A stretch of DNA of 64,000 nucleotides from contig JAOWCC010000936.1 of the NCBI GenBank assembly GCA_030867875.1, forward strand, positions 77,223,032 through 77,287,031. The letters run 5' to 3'. Below are positions 12,105-45,658 of the stretch, piece by piece (position 1 is the first letter of the stretch; each line of letters opens with the position of its first letter). The position numbers were made by a program, and so were the translations under genes. This DNA comes from Actinernus sp. WN-2022 (lineage: Eukaryota > Cnidaria > Anthozoa > Actiniaria > Actinernidae). Below the pieces are notes generated by a model that saw nothing but the letters and a program-made list of their open reading frames with translations, searched no databases and was not told where the DNA came from.

Positions 12105-13137
12105 ACTCCAGGTATGTTTGCAGATGACACATATATAACTACTGCAGATACTGATATCAAACAGATAGAAAAGCATATTTTTGAGGATTTAAAACAAACT
12201 GAAAAATGGCTAATTGCCAATAAGTTAAGTTTCAATGACACTAAGACTAAATATATGGTAATAGGTTCAGCAAATAGATTAAAACAGCTTGCTCCTAATC
12301 CGTCACCAAACTTCTATGGTCTATCTATTGAAAGGGTACAGGAATTTAAACTTCTTGGTGTATATTTAGATGAAAGTTTGGCCTTTAAAACACACATTAA
12401 ACATGTGATTGGCAAAGTATCAACTGGTTTGAAAATGTTATATCGTACAAGACAATATGTAGACGATAGAAGTGTATTACTTTGTGTATATCATTCCCTT
12501 ATTGAGCCATATTTTGACTATTGCAGCACTGTTTGGGGAGGTTGTTGTAGGGGTCTAAAGGAAAAACTCCAAAAGCTTCAAAATAGAGCTGGGAGGATTA
12601 TTACTAAATCTGATTATACTGTGCGCTCTCATTTTATACGAGAACAATTAGATTGGCTTCCACTAGACGAAAGAAGATTAAAAACAGAATCAGTTATGAT
12701 GTATAAATCTCTTAACGGTCATGGGCCAAACTATACCTAAGGGAATTGTTCTCTTATTCTGGAGAAGGTCACAGTTATAATCTTCGAGACTCTACCACAA
12801 ACCTTAGTTTACCAGCCCCTAAAACAAATTTTGGTAAACGTGCATTTGCTTACAGTGGAGCAGCATGTTGGAACAATTTACCTCAAACACAAAAGCAGAG
12901 TGAAACATTGATGATTTTTAAACGTAGATTTAGTGATGTAGCTTTTAATAGTATTATTTAGGCTTAGTATTTAGGTTAAAATAATTATTTCAAGTATTTA
13001 GTAGTTATAATTAGATTTATTAGTATTTATGACAGCTATTCTTGTATTTTTAAGACTTTTGTATTGGACACGGCTCGTGTGAAAACCAACCCTGTTGATG
13101 ACGATTACCGTGTATAAATAAAGATCATTCATTCTTC
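12105..13137 (+). mobile_element. LINE reverse-transcriptase fragment, plus orientation
   Basis: Starts at the FADDT catalytic motif (12117) and runs through KLLGVYLDESLAFKTHIKHV, YFDYCSTVWGG, LQKLQNRAGRII and LDWLPLDERR to a stop at 12740, then continues after a frameshift in 12746-12961 (YNLRDS, WNNLPQ, FKRRFSD). The 3' end is AATAAAGATCATTCATTC at about 13120-13137. This is the palm/thumb part of a CR1/L2-type LINE, 5' truncated exactly at the active-site segment. Confidence 0.85.
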
Positions 13138-14972: not shown

Positions 14973-16469
14973 CTAAAGTCGCTTCTTGACACATACTTGG
15001 TACGGTTTAGGGTGTAGAATTCCTCCAGCCTCTGCCTTGAGCGATGGAAGCTCGCATCCCAGTGGATTCTCAAACCTGAACTGCTGCAATAGACGACACA
15101 GGAACAAGAACAACTCCACTCGCGCCAGTACTTCCCCCATACACATCCTCACACCTGCGCCAAAAGGTAGAAAAGTATCTGCACTTGGAGCTGAGAACTT
15201 CCCTTCCTCATCTAGGAACCGATCGATGTTGAACTGGAAAGGGTCTTTCCAGTAGGAGGGGTCGTGATGGAGGGACCACAGGTTGGTAAACAGTGTCGTA
15301 CCTTTAGGAATATGGTACCCCCCGAGGGTTATGTCCTCTGTATTCCTATGAGGGATAGCAAGAGGCAATATCGATGATAGACGTAAAGTTTCGGCCATAA
15401 ATGCCTCCAATAGCGGAAGCTCCTTCTTCAAGCTCAATGAAGGAATCTCGTCACGACCGATGACGTCATCCATCTCTCTCTGTAGCCTGTCTTGGACGTC
15501 GGGATAGCGGACTAGATATAACACAGCCCATGAAATCGATGTGCTGGTCGTTTCTGACCCTCCCAAGAAAAGCCCTGCTAAGAACATCAATATGTAATTT
15601 TCCTGCAACCATTCTTTAGCCGTTTTATCTTCTTCTTCCGCGTCTCGTTTTACCTTCAGTATAGCATCTGCATAATCTCTAATACGACCCTCCGTGTAGG
15701 TGTTCTCGTGTGCAGTGTAGTGTTTCTTCAACAATATTAGCATTTGGTCGTTTAGGCTCTGCAGTAACTTAAAGTTCTTTGGCAAAGGAAGAACTGACCT
15801 CAGGAACGGAAAAAGATCAGCAATCGATGGCTCAGGAACAAGAAGGCGGAGGATGCCGTCTTGTAGAGAATATAACTTCAGGAATTCGGGATCAGTTATG
15901 TCGTAGCGAGAGCCAAAAATCTTAGTGCAGATCACATTCGTAGTTGAAAGAGCGACTTCTTTGCTAACATCGAGAGGGACTCCTACAGATTTAGCGAGCC
16001 TTTTGCAGAGGTCGTCACTCTCTTGTCGTATCACATCCTCTAAGCGGTTTTGGCCGTACAGCCTGATCGCTGAATGTCCCAGCTTGCGATACAATCGCCA
16101 ACAGGGCCCATACTCTTGTAAAGCTGGCCACTGGGTTCCCCTTAGAGCGGAATTAATCGATCGGGCGAAACTGTTCAACGGTCGACTCGCTGTGTCACTA
16201 GATTTTCGAACCAATGCTTCCCTGATTGCCTCTCCATTTAATACAACTATTGGATTCTTGCCAATGTAGATACGAAATACTCTTCCATACTTCTTGCCGA
16301 GTTCTGTGAAACTCAAATACATCTCTTTGCTGAGAAGGTGGATGTTTCCAATCAATGGCAGTGGCTTTGGACCCGGTAGTAGGTCAAGACTGTTCGGTTT
16401 CTTGAAGCAAAACACGAGATTGTAAATCAGGAATACAATTAACCCGAGTACCAGGAGCTCAGTGACCAT
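14973..16469 (-). CDS. cytochrome P450, clan 2 (CYP1/CYP2/CYP17-like), copy 1
   Basis: A single-exon 498-codon P450. Visible: hydrophobic N-terminal anchor (LLVLGLIVFLIYNLVF), proline-rich hinge LLPGPKPLPLIGN, C-helix WRLYRK, I-helix oxygen-binding GGSETTSTS, K-helix ETLR (ExxR), FNIDRFLD in the PERF region and the heme-binding loop FGAGVRMCMGE with the axial Cys. All key residues are present, so it should be a membrane-bound endoplasmic-reticulum monooxygenase needing P450 reductase. The substrate is unknown; family flavour is CYP17/CYP1-like by my recollection. The frame stays open 23 codons upstream to 16538, but those codons lie in Penelope-like repeat DNA and are absent from the paralogue, so the Met at 16469 (MVTELL) is chosen. 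Intronless state may reflect an ancient retroposed founder; the two copies here arose by DNA duplication, because flanks are shared. Confidence 0.9.
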   Translation of the reverse strand: MVTELLVLGLIVFLIYNLVFCFKKPNSLDLLPGPKPLPLIGNIHLLSKEMYLSFTELGKKYGRVFRIYIGKNPIVVLNGEAIREALVRKSSDTASRPLNSFARSINSALRGTQWPALQEYGPCWRLYRKLGHSAIRLYGQNRLEDVIRQESDDLCKRLAKSVGVPLDVSKEVALSTTNVICTKIFGSRYDITDPEFLKLYSLQDGILRLLVPEPSIADLFPFLRSVLPLPKNFKLLQSLNDQMLILLKKHYTAHENTYTEGRIRDYADAILKVKRDAEEEDKTAKEWLQENYILMFLAGLFLGGSETTSTSISWAVLYLVRYPDVQDRLQREMDDVIGRDEIPSLSLKKELPLLEAFMAETLRLSSILPLAIPHRNTEDITLGGYHIPKGTTLFTNLWSLHHDPSYWKDPFQFNIDRFLDEEGKFSAPSADTFLPFGAGVRMCMGEVLARVELFLFLCRLLQQFRFENPLGCELPSLKAEAGGILHPKPYQVCVKKRL

Positions 16470-16489
16470 CGTTTTGAAGAGTTTGCGCG

Positions 16490-16600
16490 GCTTTGTAGAA
16501 ATTAGTGGTACAGCTACTTCTTCAGGTACAAGGTACAATACGATATACAGTGAAAAAATGTTAAGAAGGTGAAAACAGATATCTAGTATAACACTTCCCG
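16490..16600 (-). mobile_element. Penelope-like terminal fragment upstream of P450 copy 1
   Basis: AAATTAGTGGTAC and CTTCTTCAGGTACA match the intact element end next to copy 2 (45808-45862), where the characteristic TTCGGCTGGCC lies between them; here that part is deleted. GTTAAGAAGGTGAAAACAGA at 16560 is the inverted counterpart of 17136-17160. Confidence 0.6.
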
Positions 16601-22549: not shown

Positions 22550-22903
22550 ACATACATACATAATCTTTATTTATACACGAAGTCGCATCATATACATAAA
22601 ATTATCTTCCTGGGAGCCGTGTTTAAAACTATAATTATATAACCATGTAATTGAAACAATACTAAATATAACTAATTGATGAACAGAGACTAAACCTACT
22701 CTTAAAATCTTAATTTTAGATGTACAATAAGCTAAGTATAACTTTACTAGTTTATTTAACTAATGTATTAAAAATAACCTTATTATGTAGCATACTTTTA
22801 AAATTATTTAAATTTGATTTACCTCTTATCTCAATGGGGATTTTATTCCATAGGATATGTTTTACCTTGAATCTTTTGGCCCGAATTAGTTTGATCAAAC
22901 ACA
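22550..22903 (-). mobile_element. LINE 3' end fragment
   Basis: The - strand reads KRFKVKHILWNKIPIEIRGK and then SNLNNFKSMLHNKVIFNTL near 22752-22880, the LINE C-terminal WN...IR...FK pattern. The 3' tail is AATAAAGATTATG followed by TATG repeats (22550-22575). Confidence 0.75.
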
Positions 22904-23113
22904 GTGAGCCGGGGCAGTGAGCCGGGGCAGTGAGCCGGGGCAGTGAGCCGGGGCAGTGAGCCGGGGCAGTGAGCCGGGGCAGTGAGCCGGGGCAGTGAGC
23001 CGGGGCAGTGAGCCGGGGCAGTGAACCGGGGCAGTGAGCCGGGGCAGTGAGCCGGGGCAGTGAGCCGGGGCAGTGAGCCGGGGCAGTGAGCCGGGGCAGT
23101 GAGCCGGGGCGGC
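22903..23113 (+). repeat. 13-bp GC-rich minisatellite, about 16 copies
   Basis: CAGTGAGCCGGGG repeated head to tail with one A/G variant (near 23021). Open in several frames because 13 is not a multiple of 3, giving false repeat proteins. The runs GGGG every 13 bases could form G-quadruplexes (inference). Confidence 0.97.
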
Positions 23114-23407
23114 GATTAGCATCAGTCAATAATTTCCTAGCCTGCAGAACAGGCGCTTTTCCGATACGAGCGGAGCGATGTATAGCAGATACGAGCGAAG
23201 CGAGTTCTGATACCGATCCGAGCGAAAAAAAATTAGTGCCTGCCGCCATCTTACAAAAATTTAAATTCTACCCTTTTCCGCATGGATTAACGTGATTATT
23301 AAACATGTCAATCAAACTTTGTGTGCTCGTAACTTTGTCGGTATCTAAGATATGTAGTCAAAACATTGCACAGTTCATTGTTATTACCTTTATTTCTCCT
23401 GTCCAAG

Positions 23408-23559: not shown

Positions 23560-24429
23560 TCTACAGTGTGGGATTTATTTACGACCACGGCCTCTATAAA
23601 GTCGCTCAGTCCCCGCTCAGTTTTTCCTTCATCAGTTCATTTACTCGACCCTGACTGACTCTTTCACTCGAACAGAATCTGTACGAGAAATGAAAATGTA
23701 TAAGGGATGGCTGCAGGCCCTCCTTCTTCTCTCTCGTGCCAGTCTCCTTTTCCCATTTTCACGCGGCCAAATCATTTTATCACTTCCTTTGCGTTGAAAT
23801 AACACTGAGGGCCTGTTTCGCAGGCTAATAATTTCCAGTGCTTAACATACTCTAGCTCTGTCAATGTACAACTTTTACCTGTCCGTCAAATGATAATTGA
23901 CAGGTTTGTATAAGGGCAAGACTTCAGATGATCACATGTGACCAAAAGCACCAATCAGATAATGATTTTGAAAGTTCATTGTTTTAATGCGCTTCATTTG
24001 AATATGTCCCTAAAACAATAGGCATTCTGTGCGATGGTCACAGCGTTTTGTGGTTCCAGCGATTTGTATTCCGGTCCTAGGGGAGGGGGGGAGTGGGGGG
24101 GGGGGGGGGGGGGATGCGCAGAAGTCTCGATAGAACGCTTAGCGTCAACGACAAGAAAATTAAATTCCATACCCCTTTCCCAGACCAAAACCGTAAAAAG
24201 GATACCCTATCCCAGACCTCAGCAGCTCCAAAACCATACCCTATCCCGCGACACAGATAGTTTGTAGTGTATGAGCAAAGTAGTAACGGTGTAAAACCCG
24301 AAAGATACGAAGACAAATTGTACTTACACAATTTCTCGTTTTTAATATGGCGCAATCTCTCGCATTACTCGTGCGCATGCGCGGTACATATGTAAATGTG
24401 GGGTTACATTAATATTTATAAGACATGGC
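23560..24429. other. intergenic with a long G run
   Basis: No gene recognised. GGGAGGGGG... followed by an 18-base G run at about 24084-24114 could be an assembly weak point. Confidence 0.4.
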
Positions 24430-24828
24430 AGTAGTATGAGAGGGATGGAATTAGCCGGTTTTTTAGGGTGTTATGCTAATTTTTAGGGTGTTATGTTAAT
24501 TTTTGGTGAACGCTCATTAATTCAGATGACGTCACGGAATAAAATGCGGCGCTATGCTAATTTTTAAGGCGCTCATGAATAAAATGTGGCGCCCTCATGA
24601 ATAAAATGTGGCGCTATGCTAATTTTTAAGGTGCGCTCATGAATAAAATGTGGCGCGCTCATGAATAAAATGCGGCGCGCTCATGAATATCTATTGTTCC
24701 TTTGGATGAGGTCATCGATCTATTCGGGCATGTTTGGGCAAAGCCTATTGTTTGGAGGCATGTTTGGACAAAGCCTATTGTTTGGAGCAGCTATAAAGCT
24801 AGAACCGATCGGTCCTGAAGCCATTCGA

Positions 24829-24911
24829 AGTGCCAAGTGGTTGGATAATTTAACAAGATACTTTGATGCACAATTAGGTACAGGGCAGTTTTTTAAAGTC
24901 CGATTTTCCAT
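24829..24911 (-). pseudogene. truncated inverted copy of the zinc-finger ORF
   Basis: On the - strand this repeats the first ~27 codons of the intact ORF at 25631 (one Ile/Leu difference) and then runs into the left TIR, which replaces the second His and everything beyond. Shared sequence continues upstream into the hairpin array, so the duplication includes the 5' flank. Confidence 0.85.
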
Positions 24912-24954
24912 GTTCACTCGTTGAAAGTTAGTATCAAATAGCACAAATCTACTT

Positions 24955-25600
24955 GATCGTCCCTTTTATCTCCTTTCGTCCCTTGTGTCTCCTTTTGTCC
25001 CGCTTTTTTTCGTTTTGAAATAAAAAAAGAAGCATAAAACGAAAAAAAAAGCGGGACAAAAGGAGACACAAGGGACGAAAGGGCCTACTGACAAGAGATG
25101 TGTTCACATTCAGATATAGGTATCTCCGTTTATCCCTTTCGTCCCGTTTGTCTCCTTTTGTCCCGCTTTTTTTTCTTTTTATGCTACTTTTTTTATTTCA
25201 AAACGAAAAAAAGCGGGACAAAAGGAGACACAAGGGACGAGAGGGTCTACTGACAAGAGATGTGTTCACATTCAGATATAGGTATCTCCGTTTATCCCTT
25301 TCATCCCGTTTGTCTCCTTTTGTCCCGCTTTTTTTTCTTTTTTATGCTACTTTTTTTATTTCAAAACGAAAAAAAGCGGGACAAAAGGAGACACGAGGGA
25401 CGAGAGGGTCTACTGACAAGAGATGTGTTCACATTCAGATATAGGTATCTCCGTTTATCCCTTTCATCCCGTTTGTCTCCTTTTGTCCCGCTTTTTTTTC
25501 TTTTTTATGCTTCTTTTTTTATTTCAAAACGAAAAAAAGCGGGACAAAAGGAGACACAAGGGACGAAAGGAGATAAAAGGGACGATCAAGTAGATTTGTG
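24955..25600. repeat. array of four long hairpins with conserved spacers
   Basis: Four successive hairpins (about 24960-25085, 25120-25245, 25285-25410, 25445-25590) each pair TCTCCTTTTGTCCCGC with its complement across an A/T-rich loop. Between them a spacer of about 50 bp recurs three times (TACTGACAAGAGATGTGTTC then AGATATAGGTATCTCCG), period about 163 bp. Arms are more than 40 bp and nearly perfect. ORFs here are repeat artefacts. Confidence 0.95.
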
Positions 25601-25630
25601 CTATTTGATACTAACTTTCAACGAGTGAAC

Positions 25631-25834
25631 ATGGAAAATCGGACTTTAAAAAACTGCCCTGTACCTAATTGTGCATCAAAGTATATTGTTAAATTATCCA
25701 ACCACTTGGCACAAGTCCATAGGTTATCAACTCAAGAACGAAAACCCTATTTACAAGAAGCAAAACTTCAAAAAAGAAAGTTTTTGTCGAGGAATGTAAA
25801 TCCAGTTGTTGATAATGGAAAATATGTTGGTTAG
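25631..25834 (+). CDS. small C2H2-type zinc-finger protein, element cargo
   Basis: 67 codons from ATG 25631 (in frame open from 25598). The N-terminus has one possible zinc site, CPVPNCASKYIVKLSNHLAQ then VH: C-x4-C-x10-H-x4-H. The rest is basic (ERKPYLQEAKLQKRKF), consistent with DNA binding. I do not recognise the family. It lies inside the Polinton-like element, 163 bp upstream of a second ORF on the same strand; its 5' flank is the last arm of the hairpin array. A truncated inverted copy sits beside the left TIR, so this ORF is a duplicated element component rather than a chance frame. Confidence 0.6.
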   Translation: MENRTLKNCPVPNCASKYIVKLSNHLAQVHRLSTQERKPYLQEAKLQKRKFLSRNVNPVVDNGKYVG

Positions 25835-25996
25835 GAATCCTACTTATAATGTTGGTCTAACTGAGAGACCTTAGCTAAATCAGCTAATCGACATTTGTTA
25901 AACGTAGTGACCACGCCAATTCATTTTCTATAAAGTTGGAAACTTTTAAGGGTCTGACATTATACTCCCGATCCTTGAAGAGTAAAGATATAAACG

Positions 25997-26509
25997 ATGG
26001 CTGCTAATCGTTCCAACTCAGATGATGAAATGACTGAAGATTCTTATCAAAGCTCTGATTCTCAGGAGAGCACGGACTCCACTGATGATAGTTATGACGG
26101 AGAAGAGGATGTTTGGGAAAGAATTCGTAACGAAGCTAAAGAACGGCACCAGGAAGATTGGGAAGCGTTGGTTCAAAAGTATGAACACGATGGGGATAGT
26201 CATGAAGTTGCTGAAATCAAAGCCAGTAACGCTTTGGTTCCTACCAATGGAAAAGACCTAAGAGTCGTGTTGTTCGAAGATATGAAATGGATTCACAGCT
26301 TAAGAAAAGATCCTGATTTCCGAAAAATCTTGGAAACAAAACAAAACTTGATGAACACGGAAGATTATGGATGGAAAGAAGCGACCGAGGCTGCAATTCA
26401 CAACCGAAAATTCTTGTTGAATAAACAATTCCAAAAACAACCTATTCCGGAACAGAGTGTTCCCGTGATGAACAATACATTTGTACCTTTTAGAAATAAG
26501 TTTTATTAA
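25997..26509 (+). CDS. acidic protein of unknown function, element cargo
   Basis: 170 codons from ATG 25997 (context AACGATGG). The first ~40 residues are Ser/Asp/Glu-rich (SYQSSDSQESTDSTDDSYDG) and look disordered; the remainder is helix-rich and charged (VWERIRNEAKERHQEDWEAL, LFEDMKWIHSLRKDPDFRKI, DYGWKEATEAAIHNRKFLLN). No transmembrane segment, no signal peptide, no catalytic motif that I know. An AATAAA lies 14 bases after the stop (26523-26528). It is the largest ORF of the Polinton-like element; a structural, replication-accessory or regulatory role is possible, but nothing in the sequence decides it. Confidence 0.65.
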   Translation: MAANRSNSDDEMTEDSYQSSDSQESTDSTDDSYDGEEDVWERIRNEAKERHQEDWEALVQKYEHDGDSHEVAEIKASNALVPTNGKDLRVVLFEDMKWIHSLRKDPDFRKILETKQNLMNTEDYGWKEATEAAIHNRKFLLNKQFQKQPIPEQSVPVMNNTFVPFRNKFY

Positions 26510-27045
26510 GTCGATTTCTATTAATAAATGTCTTTAAAAATATTCTTCCTCTTGTCATCGTTTAAATATAAGCAATCAGTAAGCAGCATTTGTCAACGAG
26601 AAAAAAATCAATGAAACATAAATCAGTGTAATCTTGTAACACGGTACATTATATCAACCCAAGAACTGAGAAATAAGAAAGTTATCAACTCCGCGAGGAT
26701 AAGGAAAACGAACTTTTTTTAAAATTGGTGTTTTTGAGATTGAATAAACTTTGATTAATTATCTGGTGGTTTGTTTATATTCGTATGGTAATTATAGTTC
26801 AGTTTTAGAGAATAATTTGCATCACAAGAGTTTTCCTCCATACAATAGGCTCTTCAGTTATCGTTAATCCCTAAGGACAATAGCAACATTTCTCACAGTG
26901 GATTTTGTATACAATTATCTTATGAGTTATTAACCGTAAAGGAAAATAATAAAGACAGTTTAGAGCCTATCACGAGTAGTTTGTTCTTACTATTTACGCT
27001 ACAAAGGGGTTTAGATATTGCGAGATATTTATTACTTTTTTCATT
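26510..27045. other. non-coding internal part of the Polinton-like element
   Basis: A/T-rich, no ORF of note on either strand, no inverted repeats that I can see. Lies between the acidic ORF and the right TIR. Confidence 0.5.
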
Positions 27046-27499
27046 CAACTTCGAATGGCTTCAGGACCGATCGGTTCTAGCTTTATAGCTGCTCCAAACA
27101 ATAGGCTTTGTCCAAACATGCCTCCAAACCATAGGCTTCGCCCAAACATGCCCGAATAGATCGATGACCTCATCCAAAGGAACAATAGATATTCATGAGC
27201 GCGCCGCATTTTATTCATGAGAGCGCCACATTTTATTCATGAGCACACCTTAAAAATTAGCATAGCGCCACATTTTATTCATGAGGGCGCCACATTTTAT
27301 TCATGAGCGCCTTAAAAATTAGCATAGCGCCGCATTTTATTCATGAGGGCGCCACACTTTATTCATGAGTCCAAGACAATAGAACCGTGACGTCATCTGA
27401 ATTAATGAGCGTTCACCAAAAATTAACATAACACCCTAAAAATTAGCATAAACACCCTAAAAAACCGGTTAATTCCATCCCTCTCATACTACTCATGGC

Positions 27500-29140: not shown

Positions 29141-29355
29141 CCGCGGCGATCCAAAATTCCAGGCTAAAACGAGGTCGAAAGCAAAATTATAGCTCTCCTA
29201 GTAATCCACCATCCAAACGACCGAGAGAAACACATTCCGCGCCGAGTGCAAGCGCTAACACTCAACAGGTACATAGGCCTATTCTTCCTCGACCATCAGC
29301 CCTGCAGTCTAATCCAGCAGCTGAAAATCAGCATGTTCTGTGTACTCCTCGATAA
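29137..29355 (+). CDS. basic Ser/Pro-rich continuation ORF, probably frameshifted from the preceding ORF
   Basis: Begins TAAIQNSRLKRGRKQN and continues NPPSKRPRETHSAPSAS, with two basic clusters resembling nuclear localisation signals, then low-complexity Ser/Pro/Ala. It overlaps the preceding stop by 4 bases, which suggests a one-base frameshift in a single original protein. Ends where helicase-derived sequence begins on the other strand. Confidence 0.4.
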   Translation: MTAAIQNSRLKRGRKQNYSSPSNPPSKRPRETHSAPSASANTQQVHRPILPRPSALQSNPAAENQHVLCTPR

Positions 29356-29399
29356 TTGCGTTGAGAGGAGATATGACGACCACGATTGATAATATGAGT

Positions 29400-29652
29400 T
29401 GGATGATCCTTGAAGAGCATTAAACTCAAACGGTAAACTTTGGTAAATTAACGATTTACCATAACCGGTCGGAAGGACACAGAAACAGTCCTTCTTATCG
29501 ATACTAATTACCCGAATAGCTTCCAATTGTTTAGTTTTTAAAGAAAATTGTATTTTAAGCTTTGCAAGGGCGAACTGGATAGCTTCCATGAAGTCCGCCA
29601 TTGCTTTAGTTAGCAAATCGGAAATGAGTTCTAAGAGCATGCGCAGTTTCAA
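29400..29652 (-). pseudogene. RecQ-like helicase N-terminal fragment
   Basis: On the - strand from Met at 29652: MADFMEAIQFALAKLKIQF, a Q-motif-like LKTKQLEAIRVI, then the Walker A segment CVLPTGYGKSLIYQSLPFEF. This is the start of a superfamily-2, RecQ-type ATPase. Homology stops soon after (about 29410), well before motif II, so it cannot be a functional helicase. It begins about 90 bp inside the right TIR of the host element. Confidence 0.7.
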
Positions 29653-44161: not shown

Positions 44162-45658
44162 CTAAAATCGCTTCTTGACACATACTTGGTACGGTTTAGG
44201 GTGTAGCACTCCTCCAACCTCTGCCTTGAGCGATGGAAGCTCGCATCCCAGTGGATTCTCAAACCTGAACTGCTGCAATAGACGACACAGGAACAAGAAC
44301 AACTCCACTCGCGCTAGTACTTCCCCCATACACATCCTCACACCTGCGCCAAAAGGTAGAAAACTATCTGCACTTGGAGCTGAGAACTTCCCTTCCTCAT
44401 CTAGGAACCGATCGATGTTGAACTGGAAAGGGTCTTTCCAGTAGGAGGGGTCGTGATGGAGGGACCACAGGTTGGTAAACAGCGTCGTACCTTTAGGAAT
44501 ATGGTACCCCCCGAGGGTTATGTCCTCTGTATTCCTATGAGGGATAGCAAGAGGCAATATCGATGATAGACGTAAAGTTTCGGCCATAAATGCCTCCAAT
44601 AGCGGAAGCTCCTTCTTCAAGCTCAATGAAGGAATCTCGTCACGACCGATGACGTCATCCATCTCTCTCTGTAGCCTGTCTTGGACGTCGGGATAGCGGA
44701 CTAGATATAACACAGCCCATGAAATCGATGTGCTGGTCGTTTCTGACCCTCCCAAGAAAAGCCCTGCTAAGAACATCAATATGTAATTTTCCTGCAACCA
44801 TTCTTTAGCCGTTTTATCTTCTTCTTCCGCGTCTCGTTTTACCTTCAGTATAGCATCTGCATAATCTCTAATACGACCCTCCGTGTAGGTGTTCTCGTGT
44901 GCAGTGAAGTGTTTCTTCAACAATATTAGCATTTGGTCGTTTAGGTTCTGCAGTAACTTGCTGTTCTTTGGCATAGGAAGAACTGACCTCAGGAACGGAA
45001 AAAGATCAGCAATCGATGGCTCAGGAACAAGAAGGCGGAGGATGCCGTCTTGTAGAGAACATAACTTCAGGAATTCGGGATCAGTTATGTCGTAGCGAGA
45101 GCCAAAAATCTTAGTGCAGATCACATTCGTAGTTGAAAGAGCGACTTCTTTGCTAACATCGAGAGCGACTCCTTCAGATTTAGCGAGCCTTTTGCAGAGG
45201 TCGTCACTCTCTTGTTGTATGACATCCTCTAAACGGTTTTGGCCATACAGCCTGATCGCTGAATGTCCCAGCTTGCGATACAATCGCCAACAGGGCCCGT
45301 AGTCTTGTAAAGCTGGCCACGGGGTTCCCCTTAGAGCGGAATTAATCGATCGGGCGAAGCTGTTCAACGGTCGACTCGCAGTGTCACTTGATTTTCGAAC
45401 CAATGCTTCCCTGATTGCCTCTCCATTCAATACAACTATTGGAGCCTTGCCAATATAGATACGAAACACTCTTCCATACTTCTTGCCGAGTTCTGTGAAA
45501 CTCAAATACACCTCTTTGCTGAGAAGGTGGATGTTTCCAATCAATGGCAGTGGCTTTGGACCTGGTAGTAGGTCAAGACTGTTCGGTTTCTTGAAGCAAA
45601 ACACGAGATTGTAAACCAGGAATACAATTAACCCGAGTACCAGGAGCTCAGTGACCAT
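44162..45658 (-). CDS. cytochrome P450, clan 2 (CYP1/CYP2/CYP17-like), copy 2
   Basis: 498 residues, single exon, intact. All P450 motifs match copy 1: LLPGPKPLPLIGN hinge, GGSETTSTS I-helix, ETLR, FNIDRFLD, heme loop FGAGVRMCMGE. By eye it differs from copy 1 at roughly 25 positions, mostly conservative (for example KNPIVV/KAPIVV, GTQWPALQEY/GTPWPALQDY, SVGVPLD/SEGVALD, LPLPKNFKLLQS/LPMPKNSKLLQN) and clustered in the N-terminal half, including the C-helix and F-G regions that can shape substrate access. The start MVTELL is fixed because sequence just upstream differs from copy 1. Expected to be an ER monooxygenase; substrate unknown. Confidence 0.92.
   Translation of the reverse strand: MVTELLVLGLIVFLVYNLVFCFKKPNSLDLLPGPKPLPLIGNIHLLSKEVYLSFTELGKKYGRVFRIYIGKAPIVVLNGEAIREALVRKSSDTASRPLNSFARSINSALRGTPWPALQDYGPCWRLYRKLGHSAIRLYGQNRLEDVIQQESDDLCKRLAKSEGVALDVSKEVALSTTNVICTKIFGSRYDITDPEFLKLCSLQDGILRLLVPEPSIADLFPFLRSVLPMPKNSKLLQNLNDQMLILLKKHFTAHENTYTEGRIRDYADAILKVKRDAEEEDKTAKEWLQENYILMFLAGLFLGGSETTSTSISWAVLYLVRYPDVQDRLQREMDDVIGRDEIPSLSLKKELPLLEAFMAETLRLSSILPLAIPHRNTEDITLGGYHIPKGTTLFTNLWSLHHDPSYWKDPFQFNIDRFLDEEGKFSAPSADSFLPFGAGVRMCMGEVLARVELFLFLCRLLQQFRFENPLGCELPSLKAEVGGVLHPKPYQVCVKKRF

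Follow-up and report, generated by a model that had tools for sequence, protein, structure and literature searches.

The window analysed here is a 64,000-nucleotide stretch of Actinernus sp. WN-2022 (contig JAOWCC010000936.1; the genome comprises 1.39 Gb in 1,772 contigs), and it contains a 3,064-bp element at 24430-27493 that is very probably a non-autonomous satellite of a Polinton/Maverick lineage present in the genome of this animal. We place the element in the Polinton family because its terminal inverted repeat (TIR) also bounds loci with integrase, capsid, protease, ATPase and polymerase-like genes. The initial annotation had described a complete element with exact ends, namely TIRs of about 400 bp starting with AG and CATGGC on both sides, and two small open reading frames (ORFs), none of them a Polinton gene. 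The ends are as described, with the same inward sequence, AGTAGTATGAGAGGGATGGA, at both termini. "Complete" holds for these ends and fails for the interior, a palindrome that has lost most of one arm; the element derives from a palindromic family and has kept a single full arm. Its features are as follows, TSD denoting the target-site duplication.

24424-24429, no strand: left TSD CATGGC, 6 bp
24430-27493: element, 3,064 bp, termini AGTAGT...ACTACT
24430-24831, plus: left TIR, 402 bp, AGTAGT end; TGACGTCA at TIR position 98, CTATAAAG at 362
24830-24831, no strand: deletion junction joining the left TIR to the P2 remnant, 2-bp GT overlap
24831-24911, minus: left-arm P2 remnant, codons 1-27 in antisense (tblastn of P2, L001 positions 1982-1902)
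24972-25570, no strand: array of direct repeats of about 163 bp, each unit largely self-complementary; palindrome centre
25631-25834, plus: P2 gene, 67 aa, zinc-finger-like, homologous to a small gene of large Polinton loci
25997-26509, plus: P1 gene, 170 aa, acidic N-terminus, seen only in satellites
26510-27047, no strand: subterminal region, at least partly common to all satellites among the 20 fetched stretches
27048-27493, minus: right TIR, 446 bp, ACTACT end
27494-27499, no strand: right TSD CATGGC, 6 bp; perfect match to the left

In the alignment of the two TIRs, 397 positions match, 5 mismatch and 44 bases fall in gaps, namely an indel of 43 bp and another of 1 bp; the left TIR has three ATGCTAAT boxes, promoter-like by motif alone. 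P1 and P2 are the two credible ORFs, and the remaining ORFs of at least 80 aa (24661-24924, 25100-25444 and 25260-25628) fall in the left TIR and adjoining stretch or in the 163-bp array. Neither P1 nor P2 has a Pfam domain above cut-off or matches a transposase family there. Since it carries only P1 and P2, with neither a protein-primed family B DNA polymerase nor an integrase of its own, the element does not have the status of an autonomous Polinton.

Shared ends and the link to Polintons

According to PMC8097293, vertebrate Mavericks have the end motifs 5'-(AG)3//(CT)3-3' and 5'-(AGT)2//(ACT)2-3' with perfect 6-bp duplications. The termini in the window fit the second motif, (AGT)2//(ACT)2, which together with the 6-bp duplication makes up this published signature; the initial annotation had described the pairing of long AG-ended TIRs with a 6-bp duplication as known for Polinton/Maverick elements.

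The left TIR gave 45 matches from 40 scored of 2,675 first-look candidates. Its 24-bp end, with at most 3 mismatches, occurs 1,349 times in the genome (664 forward, 685 reverse), far above chance, since the same pattern read backwards occurs 0 times. Among 95 exact ends listed, 52 make 26 adjacent facing pairs 1.1-6.8 kb apart, which is the size of small elements, and 43 are without such a partner. Twenty stretches around TIR matches were fetched and sorted by content:

L030, L032, L034, L036, L040: large Polinton-like loci (5)
L021, L024, L029, L031, L033, L038: ATPase-type satellites (6)
L022, L023, L026, L027, L035, L037, L039: P2-type satellites (7)
L025 and L028: a 1.9-2.0-kb element with identical flanks, taken as one insertion

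L025 (1,893 bp) and L028 (2,019 bp) lie on two contigs in opposite orientation and are probably two haplotypes of one locus.

Relatives with the same ends and 6-bp duplications, which the initial annotation had proposed to seek, are thus present in number. Both ends could be read in 17 elements (the window element, L021, L022, L023, L024, L025/L028, L026, L027, L029, L032, L033, L035, L039, L049/L050, L051, L053 and L054), and 15 of these have identical 6-bp flanks; L023 (GTCACT/GTCATT) and L026 (AATGAT/AATGAC) agree at 5/6 bases, with one changed base each, at the element end. The L027 duplication fits only on the assumption of one extra AGT on the left end. Left out of this count are L030, L031, L034, L036, L037, L038, L040 and L052, in which one end is missing or broken; L044-L048, whose stretches do not span both ends; L042 and L043, which belong to L051 and L052; and the short search loci L003-L020 and L055.

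The five large loci supply the large TIR-sharing element that the initial annotation had proposed to look for. L032, the sole complete one, is 7.7 kb long with the TSD GACGGT; besides an integrase (Pfam rve, E value 3.3e-12; Chromo, E 4.1e-12) it encodes a protein resembling PC4 (E 4e-8), another of 235 aa and a polymerase-like piece of 482 aa. The other four are 10-kb stretches with one matching TIR each, and all of them contain ATPase and polymerase-like genes; a protease is found in L030, L034 and L036, a capsid gene in L030 and L034, and an integrase in L034 (rve E 5.1e-12; solved retroviral and retrotransposon integrases were matched, best E 2.7e-8). The left TIR of the window is 82-87% identical to the five large loci by BLAST, and 74% identical to the right TIR of L032; it is the TIR sequence itself, over about 400 bp, and not merely the end motif, that is common to integrase-bearing elements. 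These shared TIRs support the first of two options in the initial annotation, a non-autonomous Polinton satellite carrying its own small genes. A non-Polinton transposase was not noticed in the five large loci, where no systematic search for one was made. Viral contigs contained no such integrase, and no relatives of P1 or of a 17-mer of the TIR.

Several points weigh against the Polinton assignment. The Pfam matches for protease, ATPase and capsid all fall under the curated cut-offs: Peptidase_C5, the adenovirus endoprotease family, reaches E 0.0094 with the L030 protease, and Pox_A32 and Adeno_IVa2 reach E 2.4e-4 and 0.0013 with the L030 ATPase. The capsid piece of L030 matches the double jelly-roll model at E 0.0064 and its homologue P0006 does so at E 8.8e-6, both below cut-off; the homologue P0043 is unmatched by that model, and the L034 capsid piece has no Pfam hit. 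Against solved structures the best E for the capsid piece is 0.93. The L030 piece has 970 homologues at E<=0.01, and 2 of the 120 listed are named capsid or major capsid by their source, both from Porites lobata. The polymerase is the weakest link, resting on motifs and one short match. The polymerase pieces contain YDFE, NSSYGK and DTDS, which we read as polymerase motifs, and their sole match to a DNA_pol_B_2-positive polymerase of the same genome is 33% over 51 aa (E 1.9e-6); the pieces in the TIR-sharing loci have no Pfam DNA_pol_B_2 hit, and the C-terminal piece has no match among solved structures. PF03175 reaches a best E of 7.5e-35 elsewhere in the genome, and the 75 best polymerase loci that we compared are without a demonstrated link to the TIR in the window. 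Finally, mobilisation in trans and dependence on a helper are inferred.

Genome-wide, DNA_pol_B_2 gave 3,055 first-look candidates, with most listed rows in open frames of 800-2,005 aa; because many of these frames are long, Polinton-type polymerases look very numerous in this genome.

Palindromic relatives and arm homogenisation

A number of the relatives, 4.4-6.2 kb long, mirror themselves almost from end to end, with the 163-bp repeats at the centre. Eight of them (L022, L023, L026, L027, L039, L051, L053 and L054) align with their own reverse complement end to end or nearly so, with an arm identity of 96.5-99.3% over aligned columns. P2 is present in both arms of all eight, and P1 in both arms of all except L023 and L026; the genes point outward, and some P1 copies are broken. 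Among the seven P2-type satellites, five are near end-to-end palindromes (L022, L023, L026, L027, L039), L035 is one-armed, and in L037 both ends were not found. L022 contains a PC4-like gene (Pfam E 4.9e-8), which is also present by sequence in L035 and L037. In total 12 palindromes were seen, 9 with both flanks read; 7 of these have a perfect 6-bp duplication and 2 agree at 5/6. L051-L054 were chosen for paired P1 hits and are therefore no independent gauge of palindrome frequency.

In L026, 196-aa and 254-aa proteins stand in place of P1 (L026:679-1266 and L026:3955-4716), neither with a Pfam match; the 196-aa ORF is present in each arm, and the 254-aa ORF is intact in one arm and shorter in the other.

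The same architecture appears in the P1 search. Of the 150 scored P1 places, 76 form 38 close pairs, all divergent; the other 74 have no listed partner, which may rank below 150. The pair spacings cluster at about 1,636, 1,800, 1,961, 2,127 and 2,287 bp, and 22 of the 38 fall no more than 8 bp from 1,637 plus some multiple of 163, which is also the central repeat length in bp; about 4 would be expected. The offset was picked after inspection of the data, the copies are related, and 16 do not fit.

The arms of one element are homogenised. We aligned the P2-P1 module of 10 palindromes, 24 arms including 4 without a partner (C635 over 739 bp rather than 879). Arm-to-arm identity within elements is 98.75-100%, and between elements it averages 98.1% and reaches 99.5% (266 pairs). 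The mean within-element distance is 0.0048 against 0.0169 on random re-pairing, and homogenisation follows from the fact that none of 100,000 shuffles brought the arms as close. An assembly artefact is rejected for most palindromes, since the arms differ by 0.1-1.3% in 9 of the 10 pairs; the rejection does not extend to C813, whose arms are identical over 879 bp and whose ends were not reached.

The window copy retains part of this structure. Its interior stretch 24830-25083 pairs with 25459-25712, so that the inverted repeats kept are the TIRs and this 254-bp inner stretch. The deletion seems private to this copy, because a 27-mer over the junction, with up to 3 mismatches allowed, matches nowhere in the 1.39 Gb except once, in the window. 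Long palindromes tend to lose arms, and the loss here probably came after insertion, which is simpler than loss before it. In L035, P1 and P2 are likewise confined to one arm.

How the arms are kept alike allows two accounts, copying of a folded replication intermediate, which we take up below, or chromosomal gene conversion and hairpin repair acting on genuine palindromes. We regard the second as quite plausible, if somewhat short of probable. Long inverted repeats convert and rearrange, post-insertion gene conversion could likewise homogenise the arms, and one inner arm is lacking in the window copy and in L035. One arm of L051 and one of L052 are not nearest their partners (2 of 10 palindromes). 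Sister arms make up 7 of the 10 pairs in the tree, the exceptions being L039 (support 0.91), L051 and L054, so that homogenisation is incomplete in some copies. On the other side, the central architecture and the 163-bp steps fit either model, and no analysis separates the two.

The genes, the origin of the satellite and a proposed mechanism

P2 has, by eye, a C-x4-C-x10-H-x4-H pattern, and in an alignment with its homologues, of which public sequence holds 10, both cysteines and both histidines are invariant or nearly so. By tblastn, P2 homologues are found in L030, L034, L036 and L040 at 53-71% identity, and none in L032. Compared with L030, L034 and L036, the nonsynonymous divergence (dN) is 0.25-0.27; the synonymous divergence (dS) could be computed for L034 alone, where it is 2.7. 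P2 is stop-free in 150 of 150 scored places and P1 in 144 of 150, counts that are flattering because the scored places are the best-scoring ones. As judged from these comparisons, P2 is a conserved small Polinton gene.

P1 gave 1,231 first-look candidates, the best 150 of which scored 94-100% identical. It is absent from the five large loci (stretches of up to 10 kb, L032 alone complete). A protein database search returned 7 candidates, none at E<=0.1; this negative is informative because the same database has coral, anemone and echinoderm proteins, although small ORFs often go unannotated. Against solved structures the best E is 0.15, and a single-sequence model, of low confidence, has helices only (mean predicted local distance difference test score, pLDDT, 47.8). 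Over the 24 arms, P1 has 29 nonsynonymous changes at 416 sites versus 15 synonymous at 94 (Fisher p 0.008). It also has 2 stops, and 46 of its 510 sites vary versus 25 of 162 in the adjacent spacer (p 0.027, in copies that are related). Constraint on P1 appears weak, since the pairwise ratios of 0.34-1.56, one of them undefined, rest on few changes.

The TIRs may also drive expression. All 23 TIRs examined contain TGACGTCA; 14 of them also contain CTATAAAG, and the 9 that lack it all belong to P2-type satellites. In L034 and L032 the TIR looks like a promoter, because CTATAAAG lies 55-57 bp upstream of the PC4 start codon; P1 in the window has CTATAAAG upstream as well.

The ATPase-type satellites have this TIR and some of this subterminal region in common with the window element. 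They encode an ATPase of their own, which is about 50% identical to its counterpart in the large loci, and a companion 162-aa protein at 37-39% identity. This suggests that satellites of more than one type make use of these ends.

With these genes in view, the element might be a simple deletion derivative, in which P1 and P2 are left over from a larger autonomous element that carried both and there is no satellite lifestyle. The P2 homologues in four of the five large loci and the close TIRs would agree with this origin, which we nevertheless consider unlikely: P1 is missing from all five large loci, and none of the 150 P1 places is less than 33 kb from any of the 75 best-scoring polymerase loci (nearest 33.7 kb; TIR sharing not established). 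The 163-bp array and the subterminal region, common among the satellites, were not found in the five large loci, and the many P1 copies are nearly identical. The second option in the initial annotation, a separate small class with its own mobility machinery and convergent Polinton-like ends, could appeal to a P1 without recognised domain or database homologue, and is very improbable and largely refuted by L032, which has an integrase, a 6-bp duplication and the same TIR over about 400 bp, while P1 and P2 match no Pfam transposase family. Two further candidates were rejected, a host gene by the TIRs, the duplication and the copy number, and a miniature inverted-repeat element of a cut-and-paste family by the TIR common to the Polinton integrase element.

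For the satellite of the Polinton lineage, we propose the following mechanism. First, any linear DNA that ends in the AGTAGT TIR would be served in trans by the protein-primed polymerase and the integrase of a Polinton, the latter making a 6-bp staggered cut. Protein-primed replication can initiate with slide-back, and the repeated AGT at the ends, apparently three in L027, would fit such initiation. Second, the displaced single strand of a palindrome may fold on itself and be copied back, thus making the arms identical in each cycle. P2 and P1 would be transcribed outward from the central 163-bp array; P2 is probably a nucleic-acid-binding protein, and P1 may be a satellite-specific accessory protein. 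The full version of this proposal, a snap-back satellite lineage in the germ line with two divergent gene copies, in which protein-primed replication by the helper regenerates both arms and purges mutations while P1 favours the satellite over its helper, is tentative, and we hold it to be possible but on balance doubtful.

Surroundings, known systems and significance

Elsewhere in the window, two long ORFs on the minus strand, 14973-16538 and 44162-45658 (521 and 498 aa, about 28 kb apart), are closely similar by eye; we take them to be cytochrome-P450-like, and the pair is a local gene duplication. ORF 12114-12740 (208 aa) resembles the end of a non-LTR reverse transcriptase. On the minus strand, ORF 22752-23249 lies over a minisatellite and codes for a repeated CPGSLPRLTAPAH unit, and ORF 29296-29652 (118 aa) looks like a fragment of a RecQ-type helicase, perhaps from another mobile element.

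The element has the (AGT)2//(ACT)2 ends, long TIRs and 6-bp duplication of Polinton/Maverick elements, and the TIR-sharing loci have between them the rve and chromo integrase, capsid, C5-type protease, A32/IVa2-like ATPase and polymerase-like gene; it differs from them at 3.06 kb against their usual large size, in having none of those genes and in carrying P1. Defective symmetric recombinants of adenovirus are similar in that a protein-primed linear genome yields mirror-image molecules whose two ends are alike, whereas the satellites here are host-integrated, present in many copies and have their own genes. Very long, internally repetitive inverted repeats that can make up most of the element are also typical of Foldback/Galileo-type elements (PMC3573991), and the repeat spans most of the element in all eight palindromes; the window copy keeps the TIRs and the 254-bp stretch. 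Galileo, however, belongs to the P superfamily, whereas the satellites here have 6-bp duplications and the ends of a Polinton. Small size and added genes of their own are likewise found in satellite viruses, virophages and phage satellites, which depend on a helper as the satellites here would, and the sister group here keeps a diverged packaging-type ATPase; the present satellites differ in having no demonstrated particle, infection or interference.

Non-autonomous Polintons or Polinton satellites are not mentioned by name in the open-access literature searched, outside which most subscription papers lie, and palindromic ones are absent from the open-access titles and abstract openings of part of the matching papers, repeat databases being outside the scope. 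Polinton satellites thus seem hardly described so far. Non-autonomous Polintons are to be expected; as far as these searches show, a palindromic family that bears genes and has homogenised arms is apparently undescribed in that literature.

We know of no direct observation of the mode of Polinton replication. A genome that has more than 1,000 matching ends, relatives with integrase and capsid genes and satellites of several types is a natural test system, in which Polinton protein priming, the mobilising or packaging of other DNA and the persistence of long palindromes in animal genomes are all testable. If the arms are indeed copied back during replication, arm-to-arm identity would record the replication mode.

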